Source of the DNA: a virus
Strand: one strand, 5' to 3'
DNA: 55,177 bases
Virus record (IMG/VR): IMGVR_UViG_3300034101_000800
Span: 1-55,177 of that record
Shown one piece after another: positions 4,399 through 55,177 of this stretch (within the stretch, counting starts at the first letter, position 1; each line of letters begins with the position of its first letter). The notes under the pieces are model-generated. The model was not told where the DNA came from, did no database searches, and saw only the letters and a program-made list of their open reading frames with translations. Position numbers and translations under genes: made by a program.

Positions 4399-5034
4399 TC
4401 AATCTTCTACTAGACGGTTAAAGTAGCCCATCACCGCCGCAGTACCGGGGCCCATGTAATCGTCGTTTGCTATCTCCATTTCAAACGAATCCGACCAAAA
4501 AAAACTCAAATCAGAAGTTTGTTCAATATCTCGTCCCTGAAAAATACGACTTGCAATGTCTGTGTATTCTACAAAAGGAAGTTTCGGATATGCAACGAAT
4601 CTATTTCCCTCTTTGTTAAAGATCCAACGATGGTGAATCCACCCAAAATACGATCCTTCATGCCTAGTCATCTCTTTGAATTTTGATGGAACCGCAATAT
4701 AGCCCCCATTAGCAATCTTGGGTAACAATTCACACACTAAGCCTGGATTACAAATGTCCTCTAATGTATGAGTACATATTGCGAAATCATATTTCCCATT
4801 TTTATCCACATCATCTAATATCTTGCTCCATAGTTCATAGGAACAAATGTTTCCCAAAAATGAAATTAGATTGCTATTCGGATGCTGATTTATATCAGCA
4901 TAGTGCGTTATGAAGGGAGATGACCACCCATACCCCGATGCACCAATGTCTATGACTCTTTTGTGTTTTGACTGTGAAAGATATTCATAGACCTCGCTTA
5001 CATATCCATTGCCATACTTAAAGTTGTGTATCAT
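4399..5034 (-). CDS. Class I SAM-dependent methyltransferase
   Basis: A 211-residue Rossmann-fold methyltransferase. RVIDIGASGYGWSSPF is motif I, ADINQHP the SAM-binding acidic loop, and YDFAICTHTLEDICNPG the motif IV-like strand of small-molecule methyltransferases. The frame extends 11 codons upstream, but the ATG at 5034 is preceded at proper spacing by a strong AAGGAGAG Shine-Dalgarno, so this start is preferred. It has no membrane segment. The position between two glycosyltransferases suggests sugar modification. The substrate is unknown. Confidence 0.7.
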   Translation of the reverse strand: MIHNFKYGNGYVSEVYEYLSQSKHKRVIDIGASGYGWSSPFITHYADINQHPNSNLISFLGNICSYELWSKILDDVDKNGKYDFAICTHTLEDICNPGLVCELLPKIANGGYIAVPSKFKEMTRHEGSYFGWIHHRWIFNKEGNRFVAYPKLPFVEYTDIASRIFQGRDIEQTSDLSFFWSDSFEMEIANDDYMGPGTAAVMGYFNRLVED

Positions 5035-5089
5035 GTGTTTCTCTCCTTTGCGAGTCTCGCAGACCACTGCCTAGTGATTCTAATAGTTC

Positions 5090-5854: not shown

Positions 5855-6624
5855 CAAAACCTCAGTAGTCCTTCCGGCCGTGACGCGGGTGTAAACTTGT
5901 AATAGTCGTTCATAATTCTGAGGGGTATTAGAGAAGTTTTCATACCTGCAACCACAGTAGACATTCCTATCTCAACCCCCTCTGCAAATGCCCATATGTT
6001 CTCTGCTTGACTTTTATTGAAAAGTTCCATCCAGTTTGCACAGAACACAGACAACTTATCGTTATTCGCAAAAATCATATACTGTTCATTGCAAACATCA
6101 CCAGCATCATATCTGTCTGTTTCCATTAACCCATAGGCCGGTATCTTATGCCTCCAAAAACACCAATACGATGCTTCTGGTTGTTTTCCCGCACCAATAC
6201 CATGCGGTCTTTCAAAGAGAAAGTCTATGTTCTCCGTCTTCATCAGATTCAATACACGAAGCACACCGCTTTCTTCATAAAGGTCAGTAACTTCCCAATC
6301 TGCATCAACGAATATGATGTAATCAGAATCTTTGCATAGTTGATGGCTTTTTAAGATTGGTCGATGTTTAACATTGTAGTTAAACTGATCTGTGTAATAT
6401 CCATCTGGCATATTGAACAACCTGTAATCCGGCTCAATGATGTCAAAATGTATCTTCGGACTGATCTTATCTAAGTCTATGCCTTCTAGTGAAGATTCAT
6501 CCGTAGTTATCACAGAACACTTGTGATTGGAATACTTAGAAACCTTATCATGGAACAACAAAGCGGACGAGAGATACGTTTTACCTATGGCTACTGTGCA
6601 GTATGTGTATGTTAGTGCAGTCAT
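5854..6624 (-). CDS. GT-A-like glycosyltransferase
   Basis: A 256-residue probable glycosyltransferase. The core is YIIFVDADWEV near residue 100, a DxD motif after a hydrophobic strand, preceded by a Lys/His-rich segment (NYNVKHRPILKS). Later landmarks are GAGKQPEASYWCFWR and DVCNEQYMIFAN. There is no transmembrane helix, so it is soluble. The start overlaps the upstream stop by one base (TGATG) with a full AGGAGG site in front. It sits in the middle of the glycan operon. No named family is recognised with certainty. Confidence 0.55.
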   Translation of the reverse strand: MTALTYTYCTVAIGKTYLSSALLFHDKVSKYSNHKCSVITTDESSLEGIDLDKISPKIHFDIIEPDYRLFNMPDGYYTDQFNYNVKHRPILKSHQLCKDSDYIIFVDADWEVTDLYEESGVLRVLNLMKTENIDFLFERPHGIGAGKQPEASYWCFWRHKIPAYGLMETDRYDAGDVCNEQYMIFANNDKLSVFCANWMELFNKSQAENIWAFAEGVEIGMSTVVAGMKTSLIPLRIMNDYYKFTPASRPEGLLRF

Positions 6625-7268
6625 CAACCGCCTCCTTTTCTCTTACAAACCCACACAGCATTTGAAAACTCTTCATGCATGAAAGAAACAAGATTTTGTG
6701 CGATACAGGTTTCGGAAATATCATCATCAGTAATCTCACACCAGTTCCACAACTTGCCATTTATCTGTGTATCAAACACATCTATGTTGGGAGCATAATC
6801 ATGCGCAAGTATGATATCTCCAGGCTTCAAATGTTTTGCAGCACTATTAAACTCATGTTTCTTACTACCACCATCACACAACACAACAGTCGTTCCTTCT
6901 TGCTTGATGAAATCAATAGACTCTTGGCATATACCGCTTTCTAATACACCATTCTCCCATATAGACTTGGTTCTATAATCTGCAACTCCTTTAGCCTGCA
7001 AATCATCAAACCATGAATGTCGGGTAATGTCATATGTAACTATATCAAGAGGAAGGTCTATTTCTTGAGATATCTGTCTGAAGAATTCTGTTAGGCCTCC
7101 CAAAGCGGTTCCTATTTCTAGAATTCGCTTTGGTCTAACAGACTCTAACAAATTTGCAAATGCCAAGGGAGCATATTGATTTTGCTGTGCAGCAAGACCG
7201 TTTATAGTCATCAATCCTTGGTTTTCGTTTAGATTAGGTCCTACAATAGTGTATTTGTCAATGTTCAT
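6624..7268 (-). CDS. SAM-dependent methyltransferase (CmcI/cephalosporin-hydroxylase-like)
   Basis: A 214-residue Rossmann-fold protein with RILEIGTALGGLTEF as motif I, IVTYDITRH as the acidic motif II, TVVLCDGGSKKHEF as the metal-proximal strand and GDIILAHDYAP following. This arrangement matches the CmcI-like methyltransferase group often found beside rhamnosyl- and other glycosyltransferases in surface-glycan clusters. AAAGGA precedes the ATG at good spacing. It probably methylates a sugar hydroxyl, by inference from context only. Confidence 0.65.
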   Translation of the reverse strand: MNIDKYTIVGPNLNENQGLMTINGLAAQQNQYAPLAFANLLESVRPKRILEIGTALGGLTEFFRQISQEIDLPLDIVTYDITRHSWFDDLQAKGVADYRTKSIWENGVLESGICQESIDFIKQEGTTVVLCDGGSKKHEFNSAAKHLKPGDIILAHDYAPNIDVFDTQINGKLWNWCEITDDDISETCIAQNLVSFMHEEFSNAVWVCKRKGGG

Positions 7269-7280
7269 TGCTATCCTTTC

Positions 7281-8915
7281 TTATAAGTTTTCTTTCCTCT
7301 GCTTACCATCATAGTGAAATGCTCTATTATGGTTGATAGGACTGCTTAGTAGACAACCTGCTCGGATCTTTCCTTCAGATATCAGTTGATGTACATGACT
7401 CATCCATGTTTGCTCATATGGGTATGCCCATTTGGTATCTAGAAACACCTTGCGATTGCCTTCTTTGTTGAACATTACAGGCCAATTACAATAGTGAAAG
7501 TCCCCAACGGCATACGACAATCCATCTACAGAACCAGTATGAGTTATCTTGGTTTTATTACAAACTCCTGCGATCTGTGGGCCTGGAAAGTACTGCTCTT
7601 TCTTGTCAGATGGAAGATTGTGCCAAGACCAATTAAGATGGTTGTCTCCAAAGAATTCTGTAAAACACAATTTCAGATAGTCAAGAGATTCCTTTTCCAT
7701 GATGCTCATACACTTATGAAACAATCTAGAATCGTATCGTATCATTCCGTTCCTACACGGCTCTTCTTCCTTGCCACAAAGCATCATATCATCTTCAAAG
7801 AAGACCATATACTGATGATCAGATTCTTCAAACATTTCTGCAGCAAGTTGTCTAGCACCACATATTCCTAGATTCTCTGGCTTTCTTATCTCCCGAAACG
7901 AATGCTTTTTGTAAAGTGCAGAGAACTCGTCATCGGTTGACATATCTGTAGAATTGTTGATTACATACTTGGAAGCGTGTCTGAAAGTAGAGTCGTGGTT
8001 GCGCGTGGAATCCAACCAAAGCCTGTACTGTGCAGGAATGTTAAAGCACACAGAGTATATACCAAGTTTACTGTCGGTTCTACTCTCTTTTGGTTTCTTG
8101 AGAATACTATCGATCCAAGGCGCTATGAGTCCATTCTCTTCAATCATCTCATATCTGCACAGATCTGGGTGATTGTATGTTAGCAGAGTAAAAATGCTTT
8201 CCTCTGTACCCATCAGTCCTCTACCAAGACTATCAGTCAAGTAAGAATAGTACAGGCCATTCAACTTGTTGATACTATCTTTGGTGCCTCCAAACAACCC
8301 ACCCCTAGCAACCCTACTAACAACTGTTCCTCTGGCGAAATCATTCATGGCAAGTGCATCAAACCCATGTATTTCCCCGTCCGCTTTGTACGGGAAACAC
8401 AGAAACAAAGCAGCACCGTCCATGTACTTTACTACTTCACTTTCAAACTTAGCACCAAGTAGACTGTCATGTACTGTGTTGACTATACCTCCATCAATCC
8501 ACAGAAAATACTTGGTGTTGTATGGGTTGAAAAGCGTTGCGTCATTCAACCAAAACATCTTGGACATCACCAATGGATTGTACAGATCCAATCTTGCTTG
8601 AGTACTTTCCGACAACCATCCCTTTTGGTTATACCAGGCAGGATTGGTACGGATATCCTGAATCTGTTTGTAGAACGGCATCTTCGTTCGTAGATCATCT
8701 GCAGTAACAAACTTCAGAGTAGTGTTGCTTCTGTCTCTATGCTGCCACACAAACTCTTCTAGATCAGGACTAATGTAAAGAAACATCGGGCAAGTAACCG
8801 ATTTCAGTAACTTCCCGAATGTTTCTTTGTAGTGATCAAATGAGCGGGAGAAAGATGTTCCCATCTCTCCACGCCCAATATTAATCAATCCGCTTACTAT
8901 AGTAAGTGTACTCAT
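7281..8915 (-). CDS. Two-domain glycosyltransferase: HtrL/YibB-like plus second GT domain
   Basis: A 544-residue fusion. Residues 1 to about 290 are HtrL/YibB-like: TIVSGLINIGRGE at the N-terminus, KYFLWIDGGI and ARGGLFGGTKDS. Residues from about 300 on form a second glycosyltransferase-like domain, with RKPENLGICGARQLAAE and the acidic metal motif MVFFEDDMMLCG. Paralogy with the single-domain protein at 2730-3707 is clear in the GLFGGT region. The fusion suggests a bifunctional enzyme adding two sugars in sequence. No Shine-Dalgarno is visible before the ATG, which follows closely on the upstream gene, so translation may depend on coupling. No membrane segment. Confidence 0.6.
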   Translation of the reverse strand: MSTLTIVSGLINIGRGEMGTSFSRSFDHYKETFGKLLKSVTCPMFLYISPDLEEFVWQHRDRSNTTLKFVTADDLRTKMPFYKQIQDIRTNPAWYNQKGWLSESTQARLDLYNPLVMSKMFWLNDATLFNPYNTKYFLWIDGGIVNTVHDSLLGAKFESEVVKYMDGAALFLCFPYKADGEIHGFDALAMNDFARGTVVSRVARGGLFGGTKDSINKLNGLYYSYLTDSLGRGLMGTEESIFTLLTYNHPDLCRYEMIEENGLIAPWIDSILKKPKESRTDSKLGIYSVCFNIPAQYRLWLDSTRNHDSTFRHASKYVINNSTDMSTDDEFSALYKKHSFREIRKPENLGICGARQLAAEMFEESDHQYMVFFEDDMMLCGKEEEPCRNGMIRYDSRLFHKCMSIMEKESLDYLKLCFTEFFGDNHLNWSWHNLPSDKKEQYFPGPQIAGVCNKTKITHTGSVDGLSYAVGDFHYCNWPVMFNKEGNRKVFLDTKWAYPYEQTWMSHVHQLISEGKIRAGCLLSSPINHNRAFHYDGKQRKENL

Positions 8916-8925
8916 GTGAGATTAC

Positions 8926-10266
8926 TTAGTAACCAAATGAAAGTGGAATCTCTACTTTGTTTAACCACCCCTTAGACTTACTATAAGGCCATAGTATGAA
9001 TTTAGATGGAGATGCTTCTTTATCGCATGTAAATGATATGGCAAATTTAGTGTACCCTTCTCGGAGAGAATCCGTTGGGGTTATACTTCTATCCCACATA
9101 AAAGGTTTAGTAGTAGGATTGAAGTCTTCTCTCCACAGAGTATCATTCTGTTCGTTGTGAACAGCACACACTACAAAATCTAAATCAGTTGCTTGATGAA
9201 ATTGTTTCTCATCCCACCGCAGTAGAGATGCATGACGAACCTTGTTGTCAGGCAAAATCTCGCATCTTTTCTTAAAGTCGAGTTGTGCGTACTCTTCGTA
9301 TTGCTGAAGAGTTCTTTCTTTACCCTTACCATATTTGCCAAATACGATATTTGGATCGTAATCCATTTCAAACAGTACACGATTTCTGTGGTGACAGATG
9401 TTGTTTCTGTCTACCCAGTTTAGACCATCAACAAGTTTTTCTTTGTTTTCGTCTACATGATCTACCCAATGCTTGTGGGTTCTGTACTCTCGGGTGTATT
9501 CGTGCCATATCACATTACGATGTGGCGTAAACAGATCATATCCGTGTGTATAGCATCTCATCGCCAGCGAAATTTCTTCACCGTGAAAGTAGTAATTTGG
9601 ATCATGTGGAACTTCTCTCACCATATCACCAAGGGTAAAAGCAAAATGTGCAGAAAAGAATCTACACGGAATGGGAGAGGTTAATTCAGCAAACTTTTTA
9701 CCATTACCCGCCCAAAAGGTTGTACCATCAATGTAATGTGGTTTAAAGAACACGCACCCCTCTGGAGTAAATCTATCAAATTCCAAGTACAGGGCATGAT
9801 TCTTCTCCAACATATCATCGTGTTGTCTTCCTCTGTGTTGCTCCGGGTTAAACGGAGTAACATATGAAGTTAGCAAAGGTTTGCGATGACCCTTTGCTTG
9901 TAACTCTTTAATCCACCCAATCAGAGTCTCGTCCCAATCTTGTGCAAATCGGTGATGAGAATCCAGTTGAAGAGTGTATTCTTCGCCATCATACAGTTGT
10001 TCTTGAATAGAATTACGGGCCCAACATGCTCCCTTACTTTGATTCCATGGCACATCAATGATCTTAAACCGGGGATCGTTTTTGAACTCTGCTAGTTCTG
10101 CGTCCCAAGGATCCGTTGGTTCATGTTGCCAACAAATTCCAAACCGCAGGCGTTCAGGATGCTTGGCCTTGTCTAAGCAATCCTTGATGGTTGGAACCAG
10201 TTCAGGATCCCGATACGCTGCAATCTGAATAAAAATACGGTTATCGTTTTCCATTTTCTTTGTCAT
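8926..10266 (-). CDS. GT60-like polypeptide N-acetylglucosaminyltransferase
   Basis: A 446-residue protein matching the GlcNAc-transferase family (CAZy GT60) that includes eukaryotic Skp1 hydroxyproline and mucin threonine alpha-GlcNAc transferases. Landmarks: IFIQIAAYRDPELVPTI at residues 11-27, FGICWQHEP, GACWARN, the DxH-like metal site LQLDSHHRF, SAHFAFTLGDM, HGEEISLAMRCYTHGYD and VIWHEYTR. The C-terminal 90 residues are an additional beta-rich part. The gene starts in an ATGA overlap with the DUF1599 gene. Known GT60 enzymes glycosylate Thr or hydroxyproline in proteins; the phage also encodes a Pro/Thr-rich giant fibre, a plausible but untested substrate. Confidence 0.75.
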   Translation of the reverse strand: MTKKMENDNRIFIQIAAYRDPELVPTIKDCLDKAKHPERLRFGICWQHEPTDPWDAELAEFKNDPRFKIIDVPWNQSKGACWARNSIQEQLYDGEEYTLQLDSHHRFAQDWDETLIGWIKELQAKGHRKPLLTSYVTPFNPEQHRGRQHDDMLEKNHALYLEFDRFTPEGCVFFKPHYIDGTTFWAGNGKKFAELTSPIPCRFFSAHFAFTLGDMVREVPHDPNYYFHGEEISLAMRCYTHGYDLFTPHRNVIWHEYTREYRTHKHWVDHVDENKEKLVDGLNWVDRNNICHHRNRVLFEMDYDPNIVFGKYGKGKERTLQQYEEYAQLDFKKRCEILPDNKVRHASLLRWDEKQFHQATDLDFVVCAVHNEQNDTLWREDFNPTTKPFMWDRSITPTDSLREGYTKFAISFTCDKEASPSKFILWPYSKSKGWLNKVEIPLSFGY

Positions 10267-12249: not shown

Positions 12250-12277
12250 CTTTACAAATATGTAGGAACACGATAAC

Positions 12278-12658
12278 TTAGGCGCCACCTCTATAGGTTG
12301 AGCGCACAATGTCTGCGATTTGCTCAGGGGTCAGGACTCGCATGATATCTTTAGCCTTAGCATCAGAGCAACCGTAACGCTCTTTGATAGATGCCAGATT
12401 CTGCGCTTCCTCTGCCTTGAACCACTTGCTGAAACGCTTTCTGGCACGAACACTATGGCGCAAGAAATCAAACTGCATCCGCTTACGCAAGGCACCGTAC
12501 CGATTCATTTCGTTTGCTTGCAGAATGGTATCGGGAAAGTAAGACAGTCCTCTGTTCACCAAGAATGGAATGTACCCCTTCTCGTCATGCTCCTCGTCGC
12601 ACAGCGGATTCTTGTTTACATTGATGGCGTTCAAGTAGTCGGTTAGTTTAAGCGTCAT
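12278..12658 (-). CDS. 62: Clamp-loader small subunit gp62
   Basis: Small subunit of the sliding-clamp loader, working with gp44. The 126-residue protein matches the short cyanophage form of gp62 rather than the 187-residue T4 form. Landmarks: LTDYLNAINVNKNPL, YIPFLVNRGLSYFPDTIL, ANEMNRYGALRKRMQFDFL and VRARKRFSKW. It overlaps the GroES-like gene by 11 bases and precedes regA, the canonical 45-44-62-regA order apart from the inserted chaperonin-like gene. Confidence 0.9.
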   Translation of the reverse strand: MTLKLTDYLNAINVNKNPLCDEEHDEKGYIPFLVNRGLSYFPDTILQANEMNRYGALRKRMQFDFLRHSVRARKRFSKWFKAEEAQNLASIKERYGCSDAKAKDIMRVLTPEQIADIVRSTYRGGA

Positions 12659-12923
12659 CTCTCACCACCAATGCAATATGATCCTGATGCACCAAGTCTA
12701 GATCGCCGTAATGATTTCCACGATTGGTTGCCAGTTCCCAATATACCGTATCACCAACGCGAACATCCTCAGTTAGATCATTGCCAACTGCAACAACTTC
12801 GGCAATGACATAGTGTCCTTTAGTCTTATCGTCCTTAAAGATGATACCACTCTCGGTCTTCTTTTCTTTTCCAAGATCAGTTCGTACCGCAATCCATTTG
12901 CCAATTGGTCTAAACGGCATCAT
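12648..12923 (-). CDS. GroES-like (Cpn10) co-chaperonin
   Basis: A 91-residue protein with the Cpn10 fold pattern: FRPIGKWIAVRTD, the mobile-loop region KKTESGIIF, VIAEVVAVGND and VRVGDTVYWEL. T4 uses gp31 as a GroES substitute for folding its capsid protein, and this protein could serve the same purpose by pairing with host GroEL. The mobile-loop IIF tripeptide resembles the hydrophobic GroEL contact of GroES. The ATG at 12923 overlaps the gp44 stop (ATGA), preferred over an upstream GTG. Its place between the two clamp-loader genes is unusual. Confidence 0.8.
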   Translation of the reverse strand: MMPFRPIGKWIAVRTDLGKEKKTESGIIFKDDKTKGHYVIAEVVAVGNDLTEDVRVGDTVYWELATNRGNHYGDLDLVHQDHIALVVRDDA

Positions 12924-13867
12924 TTGAACTCGCACTCCATCATAATCTCAGTCAAGCAAGCAGTCATATTGATCTCTGCATCGGCAACAAATGCTGCCTT
13001 GTATTGGTATTCAGCAAGAATCAACACCAGTTTCGGAATGCTAGACGGAGCAAAGCACTCGTACATAGACTCGTAAATCTTGCGGAACAGAGATGCTGAA
13101 TCTGCATCAGAGTTCTCCACCACCCACTTACGAACCGATGTAAAATCCTTTTGCTTCAAGGCAGAAATGAGTTCCTTGATCTTGATTTCACCAAGTTGGG
13201 TCAAGATACCGACATCAATTTTGCCAGACACCGAGTACCGCTGCAACTCATTCAAGATGCGGCGGAAGTCGGGAAAGTGCTTCATAATGAGTTCTACAAG
13301 CACCTTGTCATCGTAAGCAACCCCTTCGGCATCCAAGATACCCTTGACACGCTGAAGCATTTGCTTTGCGAGGCCGGGGCGTTCTTTGGTTGGGATCTGA
13401 AAGTTAATGCAAGTACACCGCGAGTGTAGCGGTTCAATGATCCTGTTCTTAAAGTTACAAGTCAGAACAAACCTGCAGTTTGCGCTGAACTCTTCCATGA
13501 ATCCACGCAAAGCAGGCTGTGTGCTTTGAGCGTTGGAGTAGTCAAACTCGTCTAGGATCACAACCTTCTTGTTTCCTGACATGGAAACTGTACTCGCAAA
13601 GTTACGAATGCGAGTACGCAGCGTATCAATGTTACCGTCTTCTGAGCAGTTAACAATGATGTAGTCTGCGTCTAGTTCACTACACAGAGCGCGGGCAACT
13701 GTAGTCTTTCCGCATCCTGCACCACCTGATAGCAGGAGATTCTGCACCTCCCCTGATTCCACCATATCGGTGAAGGTCTTCTTCATTGCGGACGGAAGAA
13801 TACAATCCGCGATCACCTTTGGGCGGTACTTCTCCACCCAAAGGTATTCGGTTGCCGTAGCAGTCAT
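12920..13867 (-). CDS. 44: Clamp-loader large subunit gp44 (AAA+ ATPase)
   Basis: ATPase that opens the gp45 clamp and places it on primer-template DNA. A 315-residue AAA+ protein with VEKYRPKVIADCI at the N-terminus, Walker A GGAGCGKTT (48-56), Walker B VVILDEFD (102-109), sensor 1 near FVLTCNFKNRI and the arginine-finger SRC motif in LHSRCTCINF. Length agrees with T4 gp44 (319). It follows gene 45 by two bases, so the two are in one operon. Confidence 0.96.
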   Translation of the reverse strand: MTATATEYLWVEKYRPKVIADCILPSAMKKTFTDMVESGEVQNLLLSGGAGCGKTTVARALCSELDADYIIVNCSEDGNIDTLRTRIRNFASTVSMSGNKKVVILDEFDYSNAQSTQPALRGFMEEFSANCRFVLTCNFKNRIIEPLHSRCTCINFQIPTKERPGLAKQMLQRVKGILDAEGVAYDDKVLVELIMKHFPDFRRILNELQRYSVSGKIDVGILTQLGEIKIKELISALKQKDFTSVRKWVVENSDADSASLFRKIYESMYECFAPSSIPKLVLILAEYQYKAAFVADAEINMTACLTEIMMECEFK

Positions 13868-13869
13868 AT

Positions 13870-14589
13870 TTACTCCTTAGAGGCAGTACTAGAAGTCGCC
13901 TCAAGCGCAACGAAGTAAGTTAGATCCTTACTGCAATGCGAGAACTTGGCTACAATGCTCTTGCTAATATGAACATCGTAGTCGCCCGCCATGAGTTTCA
14001 GATTGTCTACCTTCATGTGGATATCAAACTTGGTCTTTGCCTTGTTCTCACCAACAACAATAGAGTAGGTATTGGAACCCTTGTCTGCCTTATCAAGAAC
14101 AACAACTTCGATCTTGTCCTTTGTTCCGCGCACGGAGATATCACCAACCTGTAACACCGAACTGGCACGCATAATCTCGGCAACATTGTCTGCCGTCAAC
14201 TTGAACGACACAAGAATATCGGGCATGGTGATGCTCTTCTTGGGCGAAGTCAACAGGCTTGGTTCGCAGTAGTAATAGTTCACGCTCGGAGCGTTCTTGC
14301 GAGTAGCATCAGAGACAACAACGGACTTCTCTCCGAAAGTCAGCATTGGTTCCTTGAACAACGAGATCACACCAAGGAACTTGTTCAAGTCCCAAATACC
14401 AAACTCAACATCAAAGGTTTCGTCAACTGTTGCCTCCGCCATAACATTCTTCACGGGAGTCACCGTAGCAATAGTGTTGCCAGGACGGATGAGAATGTTA
14501 GAGTTCAGAGAAGCGAAGTTCTTGAGAACAGCAAGAGTTTCTTGAGATAGTTTCATACCAGTTTCATTTTCAGTAGCAGTAGCAGTCAT
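13870..14589 (-). CDS. 45: Sliding clamp gp45
   Basis: Ring-shaped processivity factor for gp43; in T4 it also activates late transcription through gp55 and gp33. Recognised from MKLSQETLAVLKNFASLNSN and GIWDLNKFLGVISLF, which match T4 gp45. The frame runs upstream to 14649, but GGAG is six bases before the ATG at 14589, which gives a 239-residue protein close to T4 (228). It has its own sigma70-like promoter in the 170-bp intergenic region, where no other gene is seen. Confidence 0.95.
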   Translation of the reverse strand: MTATATENETGMKLSQETLAVLKNFASLNSNILIRPGNTIATVTPVKNVMAEATVDETFDVEFGIWDLNKFLGVISLFKEPMLTFGEKSVVVSDATRKNAPSVNYYYCEPSLLTSPKKSITMPDILVSFKLTADNVAEIMRASSVLQVGDISVRGTKDKIEVVVLDKADKGSNTYSIVVGENKAKTKFDIHMKVDNLKLMAGDYDVHISKSIVAKFSHCSKDLTYFVALEATSSTASKE

Positions 14590-14617
14590 TATGTCTCCAT
14601 TCTGTAGGGGTTCGTAT

Positions 14618-14645
14618 AGTATACTTTCACTTTGATTTCTTGCAA
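14618..14645 (-). promoter_or_regulatory. Sigma70-like promoter for gene 45
   Basis: TTGCAA (14640-14645), 16-bp spacer, TATACT (14618-14623) on the minus strand, 28 bases before the gene 45 ATG. The leader has room for the GGAG site. Confidence 0.7.
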
Positions 14646-14759
14646 CCACAACCTTTGGGTTTTGGGGGATTTGGTGGTGCAGAGTTTATCTGCCTGGCCT
14701 TAGGATCGATTGGTTGCCGAGGCGTCTGCCGTGCTGCTCCCCCGGTCCGGGTTGGTCTA

Positions 14760-15311
14760 TTAACTCTTCTCATCTGTTTGCTTGATCGTTAGGTCAACTT
14801 GCCTTTCGATCTGCTCCTTTCGGCTAAAGTCGTATCGCATTCTTCTTTCTACGCTTTCATCTGCACTAGGAGTGTAGTTGCTAAATCCAGGCATATTAAG
14901 AGGACACACCACTTTAGGAAAGTCTAGTTTGGTGTAGTCATCTGGCTGCTTTGCATTTAGCCATGTTGCTTTTCTATCTCCGCACCCACACTCACCGCAG
15001 TAGTATCTACCTTCTTCTGCGCTACTGTCGCGTCTAAATGGACAGGGGGCAATTCCGCGTTCGGGATCGCCATGACAAGAAACCAATCTAGTTTTCTTGA
15101 TATCTTCGGTGCATCGTTTATCTTGCGTAATTCCGCGAGAAGCGTATGCTTCAACAGCACTCTTTACTTTGTTCAGTAAAGACGGTGGATGCTGTGGTCC
15201 TGGAGTTGATACTGGAGTTGGTACTGGTAATGCAGCAGGTGTTCTAGCATTTGGTGATTTAGACCACCCACCAGTAGCAATAATTTTCTTACCGTTGTTT
15301 GGTGCGCTCAT
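14760..15311 (-). CDS. Cys-rich conserved hypothetical protein
   Basis: A 183-residue protein of unknown function. The N-terminal third is Pro/Ala/Ser-rich and probably disordered (APNNGKKIIATGGW, PVPTPVSTPGP). The C-terminal half has a cysteine pattern, RCTED...SCHGDPERGIAPCPFRRD...YYCGECGCGDRKATW...VVCPLNMPGFSNY, that could bind zinc or an iron-sulfur cluster. The ATG at 15311 follows GGAG at good spacing and overlaps the preceding small gene by 23 bases; an earlier in-frame start exists at 15350. It sits between RNase H and clamp genes, so a DNA-related role is possible. Confidence 0.65.
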   Translation of the reverse strand: MSAPNNGKKIIATGGWSKSPNARTPAALPVPTPVSTPGPQHPPSLLNKVKSAVEAYASRGITQDKRCTEDIKKTRLVSCHGDPERGIAPCPFRRDSSAEEGRYYCGECGCGDRKATWLNAKQPDDYTKLDFPKVVCPLNMPGFSNYTPSADESVERRMRYDFSRKEQIERQVDLTIKQTDEKS

Positions 15312-15486
15312 CTCGGTACTCCTCAAATGAATCGTCTTCGTATCTCTCAATGTCAGAAGATGCTTCTCGCATTTTTTGCTTCTGCGAATGTCGGTCGCCG
15401 CGCTTTTGCTTTTTCTTTATGCCGCGATCCTTATGAAAGCGTTCAAACGAACCAGTTTCATCCCAATTGTTCCATTCTCTGCTCAT
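15289..15486 (-). CDS. Small highly charged protein
   Basis: A 65-residue protein rich in Arg, Lys, Glu and Asp (RGIKKKQKRGDRHSQKQKMR; ERYEDDSFEEYRDERTK), with a WNNWDETGSFERF start. The ATG directly follows the RNase H stop and has GGAG six bases upstream, which supports real translation. No family is recognised. It overlaps the next gene out of frame. It could be a nucleic-acid-associated or inhibitory peptide, but nothing more can be said. Confidence 0.6.
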   Translation of the reverse strand: MSREWNNWDETGSFERFHKDRGIKKKQKRGDRHSQKQKMREASSDIERYEDDSFEEYRDERTKQR

Positions 15487-16356
15487 TCAAAACTCCGATA
15501 CAACTTCAACTAGATTCTTCATCTTATGCTCCATCAAATACGAGAGGATATTTCCCCTGCGCGTAGGAGTGGAGTCTGCGTACTTTTGCAGAATGGATTT
15601 CTCCAACTCCACAGGTATGTATCTGAAGTCAACCATACATCGGTTACGATCCCAATTTCTTTTCACTTTATCTGGCATGTTTGCACCAACATCAAAGGTA
15701 TTACCCAGTACCACAAGATTTTCGTGGATCGCTTCCGCCTTCTTTGACGTGAGAGGAGTCTGACGCTTTCCGTCTGTGACGAAGCAATCGTCATCAGATA
15801 GAACATTAGGCACACCATCGCTTGAGTCTCCACCCAAGATATGCTCAATCAAGAACTCGGTAGGTTCCTTGCACGGCACAAATCCCTTGGTCATGGGACT
15901 CCATTGCCGAACATTTGGATAAATCTGCAACTGCTTAAAGTCTTTATCGCTAGAGACAATCACGATCTGTTCTTTTGCAGAAAAGTGTTTGGTCAAAGTT
16001 GCAATCACATCGTCTGCTTCTGCTCCAGTAACCCGCATGTGACGATACGGAAACACATCACGAATCTCTTCGCGGATACCGTCAATCATTCCGTAAATCG
16101 CCTTCCAATCCACATCAGAGGCAGCCTTTGCTTTGTTTCTGTTCTGCTTATACTGAGGGAATACAGAGTTACGCCAGCACTTACCACCCTCATGGCACAG
16201 GACAATCTCACCGGCATCGCGGAACTTCTGTCGATATGTACGATAGATGTTCAACACCGTATGTCGTAGAAGGTCTTCTGAAAACTGAGAAGCATCGCCC
16301 TTAGTAAGGGCGAACAGGCTTCCCAACAGTACTTGGTTGTTGTCAATCAGAATCAT
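15487..16356 (-). CDS. rnh: RNase H / 5'-3' exonuclease (FEN family)
   Basis: Removes RNA primers and flaps from Okazaki fragments. A 289-residue protein close to T4 RNase H (305). Metal-binding acidic clusters are visible: MILIDNNQV at the N-terminus (first Asp), GAEADDVIATL (FEN signature), IVSSDKDFKQL (second cluster) and GGDSSDGVPN (helix-hairpin-helix region). The ATG overlaps the upstream stop (TAATG) with GGAG eight bases before it. Confidence 0.92.
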   Translation of the reverse strand: MILIDNNQVLLGSLFALTKGDASQFSEDLLRHTVLNIYRTYRQKFRDAGEIVLCHEGGKCWRNSVFPQYKQNRNKAKAASDVDWKAIYGMIDGIREEIRDVFPYRHMRVTGAEADDVIATLTKHFSAKEQIVIVSSDKDFKQLQIYPNVRQWSPMTKGFVPCKEPTEFLIEHILGGDSSDGVPNVLSDDDCFVTDGKRQTPLTSKKAEAIHENLVVLGNTFDVGANMPDKVKRNWDRNRCMVDFRYIPVELEKSILQKYADSTPTRRGNILSYLMEHKMKNLVEVVSEF

Positions 16357-17462
16357 TAGTAGGCTCCAACGAGAACACAGTTCTCGTTGATTCTTCCGCT
16401 CATCTTTGTGGGTTTAGTCTTAATAGAGTTCAAAGCGGTTTGCACAGAGCGAACACCAGTAAGTTTACTCAGCACATCCTTTGGTTTGCGGAGTTTCTTA
16501 GTAACAGACTTATCCTCATCGTAGTTGATAACGGTGGTTCCCTTTACGCTGAGTCCACGCGGATCTTTAGCAAAGAGTACAGTTAGTGTACGGTACTTCT
16601 CGTTAAACACAACCACCATTTCGCTGCCAACAATCTTTTCAGGAGAAATACTCTTGATGCCGTAATCTTTCGACTCGGACAAGTACTTCAGTTTCTTGGT
16701 GATCTGGCTAGGACTCTTCTCTTTCTTCTTACGAGGCTTGCGTTCGGATCTCTTCTCGTCTGCAAATGTACGGAAAGCGTTGGCGGTTTCAGATAGAACC
16801 TGTATGAGTTTCTTGAAACGCGGTCTAGTCAGGAACGAGTATCCTTCTACCAGTTGCTCGTCTTTGCCAGCATATGCAAGTGCCATCTCTTGTAGATAAG
16901 TTGTCTCAATGTAAGTGGCAATTTTACCACAATGCATAGGCTTAACACCCCTAGTTGTTGCCCATCCAACAGGGTCAAACTTTATCTCGCCCTTGCTTGC
17001 ACACGCGGTTACAGCCGCGTCCACAAGCATATCAATGTCTCCCAAGTATTCCCGACATTTCTGCTCTATCCTCTCTTGGATAGAAGGACCAGCACAGGCG
17101 TGACGCTTGGCAAGAACAGCAGCACCACTACACCGGAGTGCATCTATGTCACTTGTGATTTTCTCTTTGGTTTCATCTGAAAGCGGGGCCCCACGAGTGA
17201 GCATCCGGCAAAGATGTGCTATGCCAGAATAACTCTTGATGCAATTTTGGGCAACACACTTAATGTGTTCGGCATTCATCTTGACATGCTTACAGTATTC
17301 TAAAACCCACCGCTTCTTTTCTCGCTTTGTGCCTTTGCCCCAATACCAATTTAAAGCGCGTTGGAGCGCAGAGTCTCGCTCTTCTTCAGATGCAAAGGAC
17401 TCTGCGCTCCAAGATGGCTCTGTGCCATACGCGCGTTCTAGAGTTTTGTTGTAGTTCTTCAT
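16356..17462 (-). CDS. Conserved hypothetical protein, basic
   Basis: A 368-residue protein that I do not recognise. It is Lys/Arg-rich, with a strongly basic middle (EKRSERKPRKKKEKSPSQIT near residue 240) followed by a globular C-terminus (YGIKSISPEKIVGSEMVVVF, YRTLTVLFAKDP). The N-terminal half is helical with several Cys and Trp residues (NWYWGKGTKREKKRW). The gene has its own consensus promoter and precedes RNase H in the replication operon, so a DNA- or RNA-binding role in replication is plausible. No enzymatic motif is apparent. Confidence 0.6.
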   Translation of the reverse strand: MKNYNKTLERAYGTEPSWSAESFASEEERDSALQRALNWYWGKGTKREKKRWVLEYCKHVKMNAEHIKCVAQNCIKSYSGIAHLCRMLTRGAPLSDETKEKITSDIDALRCSGAAVLAKRHACAGPSIQERIEQKCREYLGDIDMLVDAAVTACASKGEIKFDPVGWATTRGVKPMHCGKIATYIETTYLQEMALAYAGKDEQLVEGYSFLTRPRFKKLIQVLSETANAFRTFADEKRSERKPRKKKEKSPSQITKKLKYLSESKDYGIKSISPEKIVGSEMVVVFNEKYRTLTVLFAKDPRGLSVKGTTVINYDEDKSVTKKLRKPKDVLSKLTGVRSVQTALNSIKTKPTKMSGRINENCVLVGAY

Positions 17463-46959: not shown

Positions 46960-49900
46960 TCATGCCGGTGCCGGTGGTGGAACTGATAAGGCGTCCAAGT
47001 CTACTGAACTCCCTACTCCGGTAGTAAATGCGGTTACTGGGAACAGGTTGATAGTCTCTAGAATGCCATCATACGCCTCTTGGCCACCGAGTGCAGTAAC
47101 AACATTCCACTCCGGCAAATACGTTCCAGTTTCAACCCACACCTTGACTGCATTGCTGTAGTGCAACTGGTAAGCAGACCATGCAAACTTGATAAATCTA
47201 TGCAAAGCAGGAGCGTACCATCCTTGACCTGTTCCTATACCGGCCATCGCACCCAACCGAGGATCGTTAGGATCGCTTGGATCTGCATTGTCTAGTAGTG
47301 CAACCCGATACAGTTTTCTCCACAAGTTTATTTCATTGTACAGCGCCTGCCGTTCAGAGGTATAACTTCTGCCATCAGTATGCCTGTATGGCCAGTTTAA
47401 TCCGTCCGGTGTGTTGGGGGTCTGGGGATGCGAAGCAATCCAGGCTGCGAGTGTTTGGTTGGATTCCAGCCCAAGTCTTGCAATTTCTTGACGCATTGCC
47501 AGTGGATACCTATCAATAACCGAATACCATCTAGCAACTTTAAGATCTTCTCCGTTCGAACCGGGATCGTCATACCCCCATCTAGTTCCATCAGGACCAG
47601 TTATACTGGTGGGGAAATCAGTAATGAGATACTGTGTGATATTTGGATTGGTTGCAGATACTGATGTCCACCAAGCGCCTTGTTGGACGGTTTGGCTTGC
47701 TGAAAGAGTTTGAGGGTACGCAGTAGTCCACCACATAACTGCACCCGGTTCTTTGATGCCTGCGTCGATAATTGGCTGGATTTGAAGGTCTATGAAATCT
47801 CGAACGCTGAGTACTTTGTCCCAACATCTCCAGTTTTCGTAACAGTCGCCTACTACTCCGCTAGGAGAGGTGGCCTCATTGCCTGCTCCGCGGCCTTGGC
47901 AGTCAGGATTACACATGGTGGTGAAGAACCAACCACGATACTCACTACCGCGTTCTATAGCATTACCTGCGCCCCAAAGCAGGGAACTAACTGCAGCGTA
48001 AACCGGTTTACCGGTACGCGCAGATATTTCTAGTCGATCTTTCAGGCACTCTGACCAAGATTGGGCAACCTGCTGCGCGCCGGCCCACGGAGTTTGCTTA
48101 AAGTACGGTGAGTAGTAAGGGCCTTGTGGGTTGTTGTTGTTTACGTTTCCATTCACGCCGGTGCCTATAACTGCGGAACTGTAAAGAGTATACAGAGTGG
48201 GCTGTATGTAATCAGATGCATCTATAATGCTTTGCACTCGATCAAGCGAATACGTTTTAAGGTCATTTCGGAGATCTTGATCAAGATTGATGTAGTAATT
48301 GCCTATACTATTGCCGAGGCCGTCGCGTAAGAGCGGCGAGCCCCACAGATCTACAGTTGGGAATCCATAGTAACCTGTTGGTTTACCTGCAAATCCCATA
48401 TCTGCTTCCGGTGCGGTTCTCATGTAGTTTGCAAGAGCAACCAAGTTGTCTACCATTGTGCGGTAGGTAACCTCAATGTTTTCTCCGCTGGTTCCGCTTA
48501 ACTGATGATAGATGTAGTCCTTTGATTCAGGAAGCAGAGGATCTATCCGCACAGCCTCCGGGCAGTTGTTTCTGTCTGGACATCCTCTTTGCTCCCAGTC
48601 TGTATAGTTGCTCCAATAGTTAAAGATTGATTGAGGATATAAAACTTCTCCAGTTTTAAACTCAAAGTCCAAGTTTGTAATCGTATACTCGTCTATACCT
48701 CTGGCATCCTGGAAATTGGAGTCTGATCGTTGCAGGCCCCATCCCCAACGGCCACGAACACTTCGATTGCACTTCGACCTACTCGCTTCAGAGGTTACTG
48801 ACCATTGCAAATCCGTTGTGTTGGCTGACCAAACTGCACCGGTGCCGTCGGTGCTGGTGGGCCCGTTAGGATCACATGGTCTACCAAGAGCATCAAATCT
48901 GGGACCAGTAATCATAATCCAGTAGTTGTTACGAGGATCTTCTCCACCAGGCTCACCTAAAGCGTATGGCCATTGTTCTACATTATTTTCGTACAGGAAG
49001 AAGCACATGCCTCCGTACATGGAACCCAAAACCTGTTCGTATTGCCAGTCTAGTTCCTTTGACGGGATTTCTCCGTAGAACAAAGTAAACTGCGGCTGTG
49101 GCGGAAGTGGTGGACAAAGATCGGGAATAAGCGTACTACTACATGTGCGTCCAACGCCTTCAAACTGGTATACACTCGATTGCGCCCCGAGCGCAACAGC
49201 AAAACATTGTTGCGATGAGGAAACATCCGTACAAAGCGTTTGTTGTGTTGGAGTTCCTTGGTTCAAGCAATAGAAACAGGCTCCAACAGTTGCCGGTGTC
49301 CCTGTTGGTGTGGGAGTGGGTGTGCTTGTAGGTGTAAGTGTTGGTGTGTTTGTGGGTGTTTGTGTCTGTGTAGGCGTCTGTGTTGGTGTTTGTGTAGGCG
49401 TCTGTGTAGGAGTTTCTGTGGGTGTGGGTGTGTTTGTAGGCGTTTGTGTAGGTGTTTGGGTCTGTGTTGGCGTCTGTGTTGGCGTCTGTGTTGGGGTTTC
49501 TGTGGGTGTTTGTGTCTGTGTGGGCGTCTGTGTTGGCGTCTGTGTGGGTGTTTCCGCCGGAGTACCACCTGGCGTCTGTGTAGGCGTCTGTGTAGGCGTC
49601 TGTGTAGGCGTCTGTGTAGGAGTTTCTGTGGGTGTGGGTGTGTTTGTGGGCGTTTGTGTGGGTGAATGTGTGGATGTTGGTGTTACAGATGCAGAGGCAC
49701 CAGGCGTCTGCGTGGGTGTCTGTGTTGGTGTTTGTGTAGGTGTGTTCGTGGGCGTTTGTGTTGGACTACCAGTTGGTGTTTGCGTGGGTGTTGGTGTTGT
49801 AGTCGGAGTTTGTGTTTGCGATAGCGTTTCTGTTACAGACGGGGTTGGAGTCTGTGTAGCAGAGACTGTATGAGATGGTGTTACTGTTGGTGTAACTGTT

Positions 49901-52900
49901 CTAGTAACTGTCGTGGTGGGGGTTACGGTAACAGAAGGCGTTACTGTTACTGTTGGTGTGGGATCCGGTACGACTTCTTCTTCGGCGTCTGTGCCACACG
50001 CAAACGTATTTTGCCAGTTAGGTATACATTGATACGCACTACGGCATGCAGTTTCTTCATCACATATCGTGGTGGTTCTGCCTATTGCTCCAGTTGTGGT
50101 GATTTCTGAATTGTTATAGAGAGGTAGTTCTGAATCTGCAATCCATGAGAATCTAAGTCTACGCAATCCACCAGTTCCGTCTAGTTTCTTTATGCCGGTT
50201 TCAACTGTAAATTTACGAGAATCCGCTTGCTCAACATTTATATCAAACACCGAAGTTGCGCCTTGTTCTGGCGTGATGAAAATGTTTGGGTTGTTTCTCT
50301 TTGTTCGTTTTAGTTGAACCAGTTTAAACATGCCTGGGTTTAGACTCACAGATTCCATAGAAACTGTCATGGTACTGGTTCCAGTTTCATAGAACCTCTG
50401 ACACTTTTCTAGTGTCTTGTACTGGTCTTCGTACACATAGTCGTGTGCTTCATTTCCTTCTTCCAATTGTACATTGGCAAGACTTACTACTCCTGTATAA
50501 ACAAAGTCATCCAAACTGTGCAAACACGGAGAAGATTTAATCACTTCCGGTGCATTAGATGGAGTTACGCTTGGGGTTGGAGTATGTGTAGGAGTTGGTG
50601 TATGTGAAGGAGTTTGTGTAGGCGTCTTTGTAGGCGTCTTTGTAGGCGTCTGTGTGGGTGTCTGTGTCTTTGTAGGCGTCTGCGTAGGTGTCTGTGTAGG
50701 TGTGTTTGTGGGCGTGCTTGTGGGTGTTTGTGTTGGTGTAGGTGTCTTTGTAGGCGTCTTTGTGGGTGTGTGTGTTGGTGTAGGTGTCTTTGTAGGCGTC
50801 TTTGTGGGTGTCTGTGTAGGAGTTTGGGTTGGTGTAGGTGTCTGTGTAGGCGTCTGTGTAGGTGTTTCGGTTGGTGTCTGCGTAGGCGTCTGTGTAGGAG
50901 TTTGGGTTGGTGTCTGTGTAAGTGTTTCGGTTGGTGTCTGCGTAGGTGTCTGTGTAGGTGTTTCGGTGGGTGTCTGCGTTGGTGTCTGTGTCTGCGAAGG
51001 CGTCTGTGTGGGTGTCTGTGTGGGTGTTTCCGCCGGAGTACCGTTCGGTGTCCGCGAAGGCGTCTGTGTAGGTGTTTCGGTGGGTGTCTGCGTTGGTGTC
51101 TGTGTGGGTGTCTGTGTCTGCGAAGGCGTCTGTGTGGGTGTCTGTGTCTGTGAAGGCGTCTGTGTGGGTGTGTTTGTAGGCGTCTGTGTAGGCGTCTGTG
51201 TAGGAGTTTGGGTTGGTGTAGGTGTCTGTGTAGGAGTTTGGGTTGGTGTAGGCGTCTGTGTAGGTGTTTGGGTTGGTGTCTGTGTAGGTGTTTGGGTTGG
51301 TGTCTGTGTGGGTGTCTGTGTCTGTGTGGGTGTTTGTGTTGGTGTCTGTGTCTGCGAAGGCGTCTGTGTTGGAGTTTCTGTCGGTGTCTGTGATGGCGTT
51401 TGTGTTGGTGTCTGTGTCTGCGAAGGCGTCTGTGTTGGAGTTTCTGTCGGTGTTTGTGATGGCGTTTGTGTTGGTGTCTGTGTCTGCGAAGGCGTCTGTG
51501 TAGGTGTTTCGGTGGGTGTCTGCGTTGGTGTCTGTGTTGGTGTCTGTGTCTGCGAAGGCGTCTGTGTAGGTGTTTCGGTGGGTGTCTGCGTTGGTGTCTG
51601 TGTGGGTGTCTGTGTCTGCGAAGGCGTCTGTGTGGGTGTTTGAGTTGGTGTTTCTGCAGGCGTCTGCGTGGGTGTCTGTGTGGGTGTGTTTGTAGGCGTC
51701 TGTGTAGGTGTCTGTGTAGCCGTCTGTGAAGGCGTCTGCGAAGGCGTCTGCGTGGGTGTGTTTGTAGGCGTCTGTGTAGGCGTCTGTGTAGGCGTCTGTG
51801 TGGGTGTTTGAGTTGGTGTCTGTGTCTGCGAAGGCGTCTGTGTAGGTGTTTGGGTTGGTGTCTGTGTAGGCGTCTGTGTAGGAGTTTGGGTTGGTGTAGG
51901 TGTCTGTGTAGGTGTTTGGGTTGGTGTCTGTGTAGGCGTCTGTGTGGGTGTCTGTGTCTGCGAAGGCGTCTGTGTGGGAGTTTCTGTGGGTGTCTGTGTG
52001 GGTGTGTTTGTAGGCGTCTGTGTCTGTGTAGGTGTTTGGGTTGGTGTCTGTGTGGGTGTTTGGGTTGGTGTCTGTGTCTGTGAAGGCGTCTGCGAAGGCG
52101 TCTGCGTGGGTGTGTTTGTAGGCGTCTGTGATGGCGTTTGTGTTGGTGTCTGTGTCTGTGAAGGCGTCTGTGTGGGTGTTTGAGTTGGTGTCTGTGTGGG
52201 TGTTTGAGTTGGTGTCTGTGTCTGCGTGGGTGTGTTTGTAGGCGTCTGTGTAGGCGTCTGTGTGGGAGTTTCTGTGGGTGTGTGTGTGGGTGTCTGTGTA
52301 GGTGTCTGTGTAGGTGTAGGTGTTTCTGTGGGCGTATGTGAAGGCGTTTGTGTCTGAGAGGGTGTTTGTGTTGGAGTTGGTGTTTGAGTCGGACATATAT
52401 CGGTGACATCAGCACATGTACTACCTACACCGTACCACCTCCAGCAGTTCGGAAACGCACCCGACGCTAACGCCGCGCCGAGGCATCCGCCTTCGCCCTG
52501 CGTAATGGTGCATTCTTCCACTTGCTGCGGTGTACCACAGAATTTACAAACCCAACAGGCTCCGAATCCACCCGTTGGTGTAATAGTAGGAGTGGGTGTC
52601 TGTGTGGGAGTTTCTGTGGGTGTCTGTGTGGGTGTGGGAGTTTCGGTGGGTGTCTGTGTGGGTGTCTGTGTGGGAGTTTCTGTGGGTGTCTGTGTAGGTG
52701 TCTGTGTAGGTGTCTGTGTAGGTGTCTGTGTTGGTGTCTGTGTCTGTGAAGGCGTCTGTGTGGGTGTTTGAGTTGGTGTCTGTGATGGCGTTTGTGTTGG
52801 TGTCTGTGTCTGTGAAGGCGTCTGTGTTGGAGTTTCTGTCGGTGTTTGTGATGGCGTTTGTGTTGGTGTCTGTGTCTGTGAAGGCGTCTGTGTAGGCGTG

Positions 52901-55177
52901 TTTGTGGGTGTGTTTGTGGGTGTGTTTGTGGGTGTCTGCGTAGGCGTCTGTGTGGGTGTCTGTGAGGGTGTACTAGCCGGTGTACCGCCTGGTGTCTTTG
53001 AGGGTGTTTGTGTAGGTGTGTTTGTAGGCGTCTGTGTGTTTGTAGGTGTCTGCGTGGGTGTGTTTGTAGGCGTCTGCGTAGGCGTCTTTGTAGGCGTCTG
53101 TGTGTTTGTAGGTGTCTTTGTAGGCGTCTGTGTGTTTGTAGGTGTCTGCGTAGGTGTCTGCGTAGGTGTCTTTGTAGGCGTCTTTGTAGGCGTCTGTGTG
53201 TTTGTAGGTGTCTGCGTAGGCGTCTGCGTAGGTGTCTGCGTAGGCGTCTTTGTAGGCGTCTGTGTGTTTGTAGGTGTCTGCGTAGGCGTCTTTGTAGGTG
53301 TCTGCGTAGGTGTCTTTGTGGGTGTCTGTGTGGGTGTAGGTGTCTTTGTGGGTGTCTTTGTGGGTGTCTGTGTGGGTGTAGGTGTCTTTGTGGGTGTCTT
53401 TGTGGGTGTCTGTGTGGGTGTAGGTGTAGCACTTTGTACTACCGTACTGCAAGAACTGCTACCGGTTTCACATGGGAAACCAAGTACCGCTGCTATGTTC
53501 TGCGGAGTCATGTTTTGTAGCCAAGACCAATCGGTACAACTGCAGGATATGGTTGGATCATCTGGATCACATATATCGCAGCCGGCCGCGGTACTTACAA
53601 TTGAGCCCACAAGGCAGCATCTTAGACGCTCAGGGTCCGGATCAAATGGATTTGCACTATTAAGCCAGTCTGTGGGACACCCCTGCTCCGCGAAGTCACT
53701 ACCAAGCATCGATATACTACCGCTGAGCCCGCCGCAAGTCCCTGGCGAGGCCGCGCACGGCGTGCAGATGCCGCTCACGCATCGCTTATAAACCACCCCG
53801 GCGCCGAGTGGTGCAGACTCATATCCACAGCAGTTTGCATCCGCCCGTATTTCGTCTACACAAATCCTGCACGGCTGGCCATTGCCCGGGCACACGCAGG
53901 TGTAGTCTACCGTAATCCTACACTCGCCCACACCAAGTCCAATTGGAATATTTTCTTCCAAACTGTCTACACCTAGATCTAAATCTAACGCTGCGCTTCT
54001 AAGAGCAATAGAGGCAGGAGAACAATCAGATCCGCGTGACATCTGGGTCCAGAAATACACACCCAAGTAATCGTCCCCGTTGTTGCCAATCACCTTTCCG
54101 TCAATGTCTGGAATTTCTACACTAATGTCGTATCGCTTCCAAGAACGATCCAACTGTATAGAAATTAGCGGAGAGAACACAGGAGAACTGGTTCCTAGTA
54201 TTGGGTCGTAATCAAAAGAATCGCAGCCAGAAATACCACTAGTTTCTGGCGACTCTATTTCAATTCCGTGTAGTTCGCTACACAGGCCAACAGTAGATGC
54301 GTTTGCACAGGAAGCAAACGTGAGATCTTCAGCAGGATCTTCAGCAAAGAAACCAATACATGTACTTTGTATTAACGATTCATCCATTTCTACAACAGCA
54401 ACACCACATCCATTACACGGGAACGGAGTTGGTGAAGGTGTGGGTGGAACGGAAGCACACGGAGTTCTCGATGGTGTTGGAGTGGGAGTAGATGTGCTTG
54501 TAGGTGTCTGTGTAGGCGTCTGTGTAGGCGTCTGTGTGGGTGTTTGAGTTGGTGTCTGTGTCTGTGTAGGCGTCTGTGTGGGTGTTTGAGTTGGTGTTTC
54601 TGCAGGCGTCTGTGAAGGCGTTTGTGTAGGTGTCTGCGTGGGCGTGGGAGTTTCGGTGGGTGTGTTTGTGGGTGTTTGGGTTGGTGTTTCTGCAGGCGTC
54701 TGCGTGGGTGTCTGTGTGGGTGTGGGAGTTTCTGCCGGTGTCTGCGAAGGCGTCTGTGTAGGCGTCTGTGTGGGAGTTTCTGTCGGTGTCTGCGTGGGCG
54801 TCTGTGTGGGTGTGGGTGTACTAGTTGGCGTCTGCGAAGGCGTCTGTGTAGGCGTCTGTGTGGGAGTTTCTGCCGGTGTACCGGCTGGTGTCCGTGAAGG
54901 CGTCTGTGTAGGTGTCTGTGTAGCCGTCTGTGTAGGTGTCTGCGTAGGCGTCTGTGTAGGTGTCTGTGTAGCCGTCTGTGTAGGTGTCTGCGTAGGCGTC
55001 TGTGTAGGAGTTTGTGTAGGCGTCTGTGTAGGAGTTTGTGTAGGTGTCTGTGTAGGTGTCTGTGTAGGTGTCTGTGTAGGTGTACTGGCTGGTGTACCTG
55101 TTGGTGTACTGGCTGGTGTACCTGTTGGTGTACTGGCTGGTGTACCTGTTGGTGTACTGGCTGGTGTACCTGTTGGT
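46960..55177 (-). CDS. Giant mucin-like tail-fibre protein (5' end outside window)
   Basis: At least 2738 residues; the frame is open from the stop at 46960 to the window edge, so an ATG at 54387 is internal. Order from the N-terminal side, numbered from the first in-window codon: Pro/Thr tract I (1-252); domain A (about 253-580) beginning a tail-fibre jelly-roll ([30 protein letters not shown]), then Cys-rich; tract II (to about 869); Cys module B (about 869-929, [12 protein letters not shown]); tract III (to about 1539); domain C (to about 1735), which completes the jelly-roll ([35 protein letters not shown]); tract IV (to about 1961); Cys module D ([12 protein letters not shown]), like B; and a C-terminal domain (2023-2738) like hyaluronidase-type TIM barrels, with NLDFEF near 2169 and [11 protein letters not shown]. 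Probably the host-surface-binding and glycan-degrading fibre. Confidence 0.88.
49296..49972 (-). repeat. Pro/Thr tract IV of the giant fibre
   Basis: About 225 residues of 4-residue periods ([12 protein letters not shown], with VTVTP at the start). The DNA has a 12-bp period with much synonymous variation, so repeats are conserved as protein rather than as identical DNA. Confidence 0.9.
50562..52391 (-). repeat. Pro/Thr tract III of the giant fibre (longest)
   Basis: About 610 residues of PTQTPTQT-type repeats with interspersed PSQTQTP, PTETP and PTPTQTP units, plus single variants such as PNGTPAETP and TLTQTP. Higher-order units of about 24-60 bp recur. Confidence 0.92.
52572..53433 (-). 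repeat. Pro/Thr tract II of the giant fibre
   Basis: About 287 residues. The start is Lys-rich ([13 protein letters not shown]), unlike the other tracts, and shifts toward PTNT/PSQT and [15 protein letters not shown] unit interrupts the middle. Confidence 0.9.
54424..55177 (-). repeat. Pro/Thr tract I of the giant fibre (runs off the window)
   Basis: At least 250 residues. The outermost part is a separate 24-bp repeat encoding PTGTPAST (near-identical copies at 55081-55177), followed by PTQT repeats with PAET and ATQT variants. Confidence 0.92.

Follow-up and report, generated by a model that had tools for sequence, protein, structure and literature searches.

In-frame Cys-rich and Thr/Pro-rich inserts at two sites of a tail-fibre domain in a T4-like phage lineage

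How can one tail-fibre domain be encoded in pieces that lie 3.5 kb apart within a single reading frame, and what might the protein between these pieces do? The question is raised by a fibre gene, gene C, at the end of a virus record of 55,177 bases, a linear fragment that was analysed at its full length and is called the window here. The window carries genes of a T4-like myovirus, including portal, major head protein, sheath, terminase and connector. Its nearest isolates are distant, as the portal is 44% identical to that of cyanophage S-RIM8 and 52% identical, over 68% of its length, to those of Methylophilales phages, and the major capsid protein is 52% identical to those of cyanophages. It is rather probable, in our judgement, that the protein between the pieces is a disulfide-stapled, exchangeable adhesive tentacle on the fibre domain.

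The interrupted domain in gene C

Gene C is truncated at its 5' end by the end of the record, and all elements of the split domain and of its inserts share one minus-strand frame, which runs from 46960 to beyond 55177. Contig L002, identical to the window over the shared 704 aa, extends the gene upstream to a start codon, and the joined protein has about 3,370 aa. The features of the part within the window are as follows (L-numbers denote related contigs, and "model" refers to the hidden Markov model, HMM, of the fibre domain described below):

46960-55177, minus: fibre gene C, 5' truncated by the record end, 2,738 codons in the window, single open frame
54436-55176, minus: Thr/Pro tract of insert 1 (site 1), cut at the window end
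54172-54435, minus: Cys-containing closing segment of insert 1 (CASVPP...GTSSPV), also in L003, L044, L008 and L009
54022-54171, minus: middle piece of the fibre domain, model 127-174 (PHROG profiles and HMM)
54022-54024, minus: left edge cysteine (GSDC), kept in occupied or looped sites and absent in the empty site of L044
50497-54021, minus: insert 2 (site 2), 3,525 nt or 1,175 aa, delimited by the HMM gap and the empty site in L044
53515-53928, minus: Cys-rich module 1 of insert 2 (138 aa), aligning with cassettes of site 1 and of paralogue A
52567-53466, minus: Thr/Pro tract a of insert 2, about 300 aa
52393-52563, minus: small Cys-rich module 2 of insert 2, 57 aa
50542-52407, minus: 622-aa Thr/Pro tract b of insert 2
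50524-50526, minus: right edge cysteine (SSPC)
50125-50496, minus: C-terminal piece of the fibre domain, model 185-305 (PHROG profiles and HMM)
49276-49980, minus: third Thr/Pro tract, after the fibre domain, absent from the complete gene in L045
49114-49290, minus: small Cys-rich module 3, 59 aa, by eye like module 2
46963-49098, minus: C-terminal 712-aa domain, conserved in relatives, no match to a known family

The earlier note had proposed, from the letters of the window, that a tail-fibre domain is split here by a 3.5-kb insertion. The motif of the one piece, ending in GVYFW, was located at 54049-54144, and that of the other, from GVVSLANVQ to FSWIADSEL, at 50125-50493. Two PHROG families and an independent HMM bear the split out. 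In the tail-fibre family PHROG_4492 the first piece corresponds to profile positions 908-957 and the second to 961-1096, and in PHROG_27782 the first corresponds to 449-508 and the second to 501-580. The HMM was seeded with proteins of Rhizobium phage RHph_Y65 and built from 28 uninterrupted phage domains, none of them of this lineage; it matches window residues 336-385 at model positions 127-174 (i-E 8e-8) and residues 1561-1684 at 185-305 (i-E 2e-10), and 200 shuffled sequences and the reversed protein gave no match. When the flanks were joined in silico, a single match of 86.2 bits replaced the two separate ones of 28.0 and 36.8 bits. The two pieces take complementary and consecutive profile positions; that each half would be a complete domain, the case which the note had set against its own proposal, did not hold. 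The content ascribed to the insertion, two Thr/Pro tracts and two Cys-rich modules, was likewise recovered, with the lengths listed above. What needs amending is the idea of a single split: the 3.5-kb insertion is real, but the domain is interrupted twice. Along the joined protein of L002 and the window the order is model 2-123, 537 aa, model 127-174, 1,175 aa and model 185-305, and the N-terminal part (model 2-123) lies outside the window in L002, upstream of this other Cys-rich and Thr/Pro-rich insert. The full-domain profile of PHROG_4492 is thus covered in order, whereas the contiguous chain is broken in gene C by the 537 and the 1,175 aa. The C-terminal piece used alone as query found no close relatives in phages or viral contigs.

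A natural empty site was found in L044, an orthologue whose site 2 is uninterrupted and reads FWTQVESEPAEYKGVVSLASVQLEEG; among the gene C sequences it is the only one contiguous at this site. L044 gives one unbroken HMM match (model 131-305, 88.8 bits) where L003 gives two separate ones, and its flanking DNA is 70-75% identical to that of L003 (L043) and colinear except for about 1.4 kb. The length of site 2 is about ten residues in L044, about 480 aa in L003 and 1,175 aa in the window. In contiguous relatives the turn at this site ranges from 2-3 residues (L030, L031) up to several tens (L035), a variation that would be expected of a hairpin tip.

Downstream of the fibre domain, the C-terminal 712-aa domain is conserved at about 40-57% identity in L003, L044, L045, L046 and L047 and had no match in Pfam, PHROG or PDB. 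A hyaluronidase-type glycosidase barrel, suggested by eye, was considered for it and set aside, since the AlphaFold model, at a pLDDT of 35.5, was of insufficient quality and the Pfam and PDB profile searches were empty.

Cassettes and tethers across ports, paralogues and phages

Gene C is the last of three tandem genes, A-B-C, in L002, L004, L008 and L009, each with an N-terminal tail-collar domain, and the insertion of the window belongs to a cassette system that spans several sites and several genes. In the following, sites 1 and 2 are called ports 1 and 2. Gene A has one Cys-rich and Thr/Pro-rich insert of 314-378 aa at port 2, and gene C has inserts in both ports. Inserts fill port 2 in gene C of the window/L002, L003, L008 and L045, as they do in the gene A copies of five phages. 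Gene B has a mostly non-repetitive insert of 400 aa at port 1 and a short loop of 40 aa at the port 2 site; in L002 and L004 it also carries a Cys-rich and Thr/Pro-rich cassette within the collar domain (FRVPDM...EGRILIG), which is uninterrupted in L008 and L009. Two further observations concern gene B: its port 1 insert is conserved in L002, L008 and L009 mainly in the last about 100 aa, and in L004, where the gene lies at 12259-16638, the interruption of the collar domain (PF07484) falls between FRVPDM and EGRILIG.

Cassette homology runs across ports. The cassette at port 2 of gene A in L002 resembles the one at port 1 of gene C (41%, E 1e-15), and the cassette at port 2 of gene A in L008 resembles the one in the gene B collar of L002 (35% over 200 aa, E 1e-17), whereas no match was obtained between these two gene A cassettes, which share a port. 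Module 1 of the window aligns with the cassettes of port 1 and of paralogue A in 12 invariant columns, ten of which are Cys. Between the near-identical phages L008 and L009 whole cassettes are replaced and the variation does not consist of point changes: around the gene A insert the two are 98.8% identical before and 96.7% identical after it, and about 570-610 bp in between cannot be aligned; the break points fall in Gly-rich linkers. L045 and L046 are 97.8% identical across 12.75 kb, beginning just past tethers that differ in type. With the patterns used, the cassettes were found neither in bacterial genomes nor in viral contigs outside this lineage. No Pfam family was obtained for three cassettes and module 3 at E < 0.1 or above the cut-off for the Cys-rich modules of the window, and a profile of six Cys-rich modules was without match in PDB, as was the paralogue B domain by sequence.

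The tracts that connect the modules are mucin-like in being long and rich in Thr, Ser and Pro, with up to 622 aa and 33-47% Thr. In gene C the Thr content stays within this range, and the shares of Pro, Gln, Ala, Val and Ser differ from phage to phage: of the near-identical L008 and L009, one has T-S-V-rich and the other T-A-rich gene C tethers, and a concerted change within the gene C tracts is suggested. It was also observed that the gene C tracts of L008 and L009 at ports 1 and 2 have one amino-acid style per phage, and that the gene A tracts do not take part in the switch. Elsewhere in L004/L005, a 323-aa protein encoded upstream of the fibre genes (4535-5503) ends in Thr/Pro tracts as well, so this repeat type is not limited to the three fibre paralogues.

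The retention of Thr is also what would be seen if the tracts were a glycan shield or spacer, with phage enzymes O-glycosylating Thr, an insert that protects or lengthens the fibre and Cys-rich modules with a structural role. Candidate genes that make tether glycosylation conceivable lie at 3704-10266 (minus strand) of the window in a low-GC block (about 38-42%), which encodes an FkbM methyltransferase, a PLOD-type glycosyltransferase domain, HtrL_YibB and a GlcNAc glycosyltransferase (PF11397), together with a weak rhamnosyl O-methyltransferase match; these enzymes could modify the host surface, the DNA or the fibre itself. PF11397 was found in the L003 record too, but neither it nor PF25342 turned up in L009 or the other relatives, whose records are fragmentary, and a study of related phages assigns such genes to host surface or DNA modification (PMC7029224). 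A shield would moreover leave the cassette swaps unexplained, and it is held to be an unlikely account of the insert as a whole.

Lower still is the probability that the tracts are functionless, neutral repeat expansions, tolerated since they lie in loops. They are built of repetitive 12-bp units, an insert-free orthologue exists, and their lengths vary, although low-complexity tract lengths taken from metagenome assemblies are uncertain. Against neutrality, the ports, the edge cysteines and the Cys-rich modules are conserved across distant phages, and the reading frame is kept over several hundred codons whose synonymous spelling varies. The largest tract of the window contains 81 TPTQ units in 16 DNA spellings, which indicates that the protein sequence has been kept beyond recent slippage.

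Predicted fold and the edges of the insertion

The fold was modelled with AlphaFold2 on the intact, insert-bearing paralogue A of L002 (771 aa, 21-row alignment) and not on gene C, and the alignment included contiguous relatives. The strands of the flanks were predicted at a pLDDT of about 60-91 and the insert mostly below 50, as disordered, which accounts for the low overall confidence of the model (mean pLDDT 54.6, pTM 0.52). In Foldseek searches the model aligns across both flanks, over 754-773 columns, with contiguous phage fibre proteins of 313-363 aa at a best target-normalised TM of 0.64-0.66, to be read with the low overall score of the model. Since contiguous relatives have roughly 170 of their 300 residues in the first part, that part alone would hardly reach these values. 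On this prediction the two flanks would co-fold around the insert. Among solved structures, the N-terminal part of the model resembles CBM4, CBM11, CBM16 and CBM22 over about 230-260 columns. As these matches are carbohydrate-binding modules (CBMs) and fall mainly in the first part, the insertion would be placed between the penultimate and the last strands of a CBM-like sandwich; after the last strand, a helix (CQRFYE) and another beta region would follow. The second part would then hold probably just one further jelly-roll strand, the helix and the beta region, and the description of it as half a jelly-roll, given in the earlier note, is not upheld by the model.

The note had further pointed to a cysteine at each edge of the insertion and suggested that the pair could clamp it as a loop. 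Both are present in the window (54022-54024 and 50524-50526), and relatives place them regularly. The left one lies 8-11 residues after the tryptophan of FW/LW in gene C (window, L003, L045), in gene A of five phages and in gene B, and the right one, where the right edge is readable (for gene A, in three phages), about 10-12 residues ahead of the G in GV/GT. Edge cysteines occur in all occupied or looped sites that were read in genes A, B and C, including the 40-aa loop of gene B, and neither is present in the empty L044. This conservation supports the clamp, in the form of a putative disulfide predicted from sequence. Against such a bond speaks that phage fibres are assembled in the reducing cytoplasm.

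With these data, it is very improbable that the two pieces are separate domains that do not fold together. The PDB matches lie mainly within the first part, so that most of the jelly-roll would already be there, but the domain is contiguous in about 30 relatives, in the PHROG profiles and in the orthologue L044, and the alignments with viral models span both parts. We give an equally slight chance to a post-translational removal of the insert, by intein-like splicing or proteolysis, that would leave a contiguous mature domain: the Cys at each edge recalls intein junctions, but the right junction reads KSSPC without the C-terminal His-Asn that would precede Cys, Ser or Thr, no splicing or homing (Hint) domain was found in the Cys-rich segment scanned, and the module content varies freely. 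An assembly chimera of unrelated fragments is the least credible reading. Low-complexity repeats do break assemblies, and contigs L002 and L004 end within such tracts, but the frame is single and open, the window equals L002 over 704 aa and the independent contigs L003 and L045 have the same architecture. Processing and artefact are both poorly supported.

A probably exchangeable insert and its relation to known systems

The preferred reading, a stapled and exchangeable tentacle, can be put together as follows. Gene C would be a receptor-contact fibre of a T4-like phage, in which a carbohydrate-binding-like beta domain offers at least two loops as insertion ports. Port 2 would be the turn from the strand DYLGVYFW to the next strand, and the domain would fold around the in-frame insert, which consists of Cys-rich knobs on long, presumably extended Thr/Pro tethers. 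The edge cysteines probably pair as a disulfide that staples the base of the loop, so that the insert would project as a tentacle. Recombination in the Gly-rich and Thr/Pro linkers may carry knob cassettes and tether types from one port, fibre paralogue or phage to another, and such exchange would alter what the fibre shows to the host surface. A broader version is put forward tentatively, as somewhat short of probable: this T4-like lineage may diversify its host recognition by a plug-in principle, with fixed ports (two CBM-like loops and one in the collar), interchangeable cassettes of knob and tether that move between ports, paralogues and phages, a Cys staple at the main port and tethers that are possibly glycosylated by phage enzymes.

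Modular phage fibres are known, and their diversification is usually attributed to swaps of terminal domains or to point changes. What varies here are loops of very large size, set into a folded domain at defined ports and probably stapled by a disulfide. As empty and swapped versions exist naturally, a comparison of natural variants can test what a giant disordered loop does in adsorption and how folding proceeds around an insertion of 1,000 residues. In the open-access literature, intradomain mucin-like or Cys-rich exchangeable inserts in fibres were not found described.

Pelagimyophages and cyanomyophages possess a hypervariable host-recognition cluster in which, according to the part of the source used here, variation occurs by whole genes (PMC7029224). 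The likeness to the present lineage is that fibre genes and glycosyltransferases lie in variable regions of T4-like aquatic phages; the difference is that cassettes are inserted within a domain in the lineage described here, which that part of the source does not describe for the cluster (PMC7029224). The collar domain PF07484, which all three paralogues carry in their N-terminal parts, provides a comparison within the lineage, as its interruption in paralogue B of L002 and L004 is absent in L008 and L009. The modules CBM4, CBM11, CBM16 and CBM22 (PDB 1k42, 6r31, 2zex, 4xup) share a beta-sandwich with the paralogue A model (TM by target up to about 0.5), but at about 10% identity and without inserts, so the likeness is one of predicted fold. 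Closest is the PHROG_4492 or CenC-like carbohydrate-binding C-terminal fibre domain, for example that of Rhizobium phage RHph_Y65 (QIG72885.1), whose profile positions run consecutively as in gene C and which shares with it the ordered motifs NG.F..WQRG, SW.RY..IP.I.GK..G.NGDDYL..FW, A.VQLEEG, CQR.YE and ADSEL; the other members seen are uninterrupted, whereas gene C contains two large in-frame inserts, with Cys-flanked edges at site 2.
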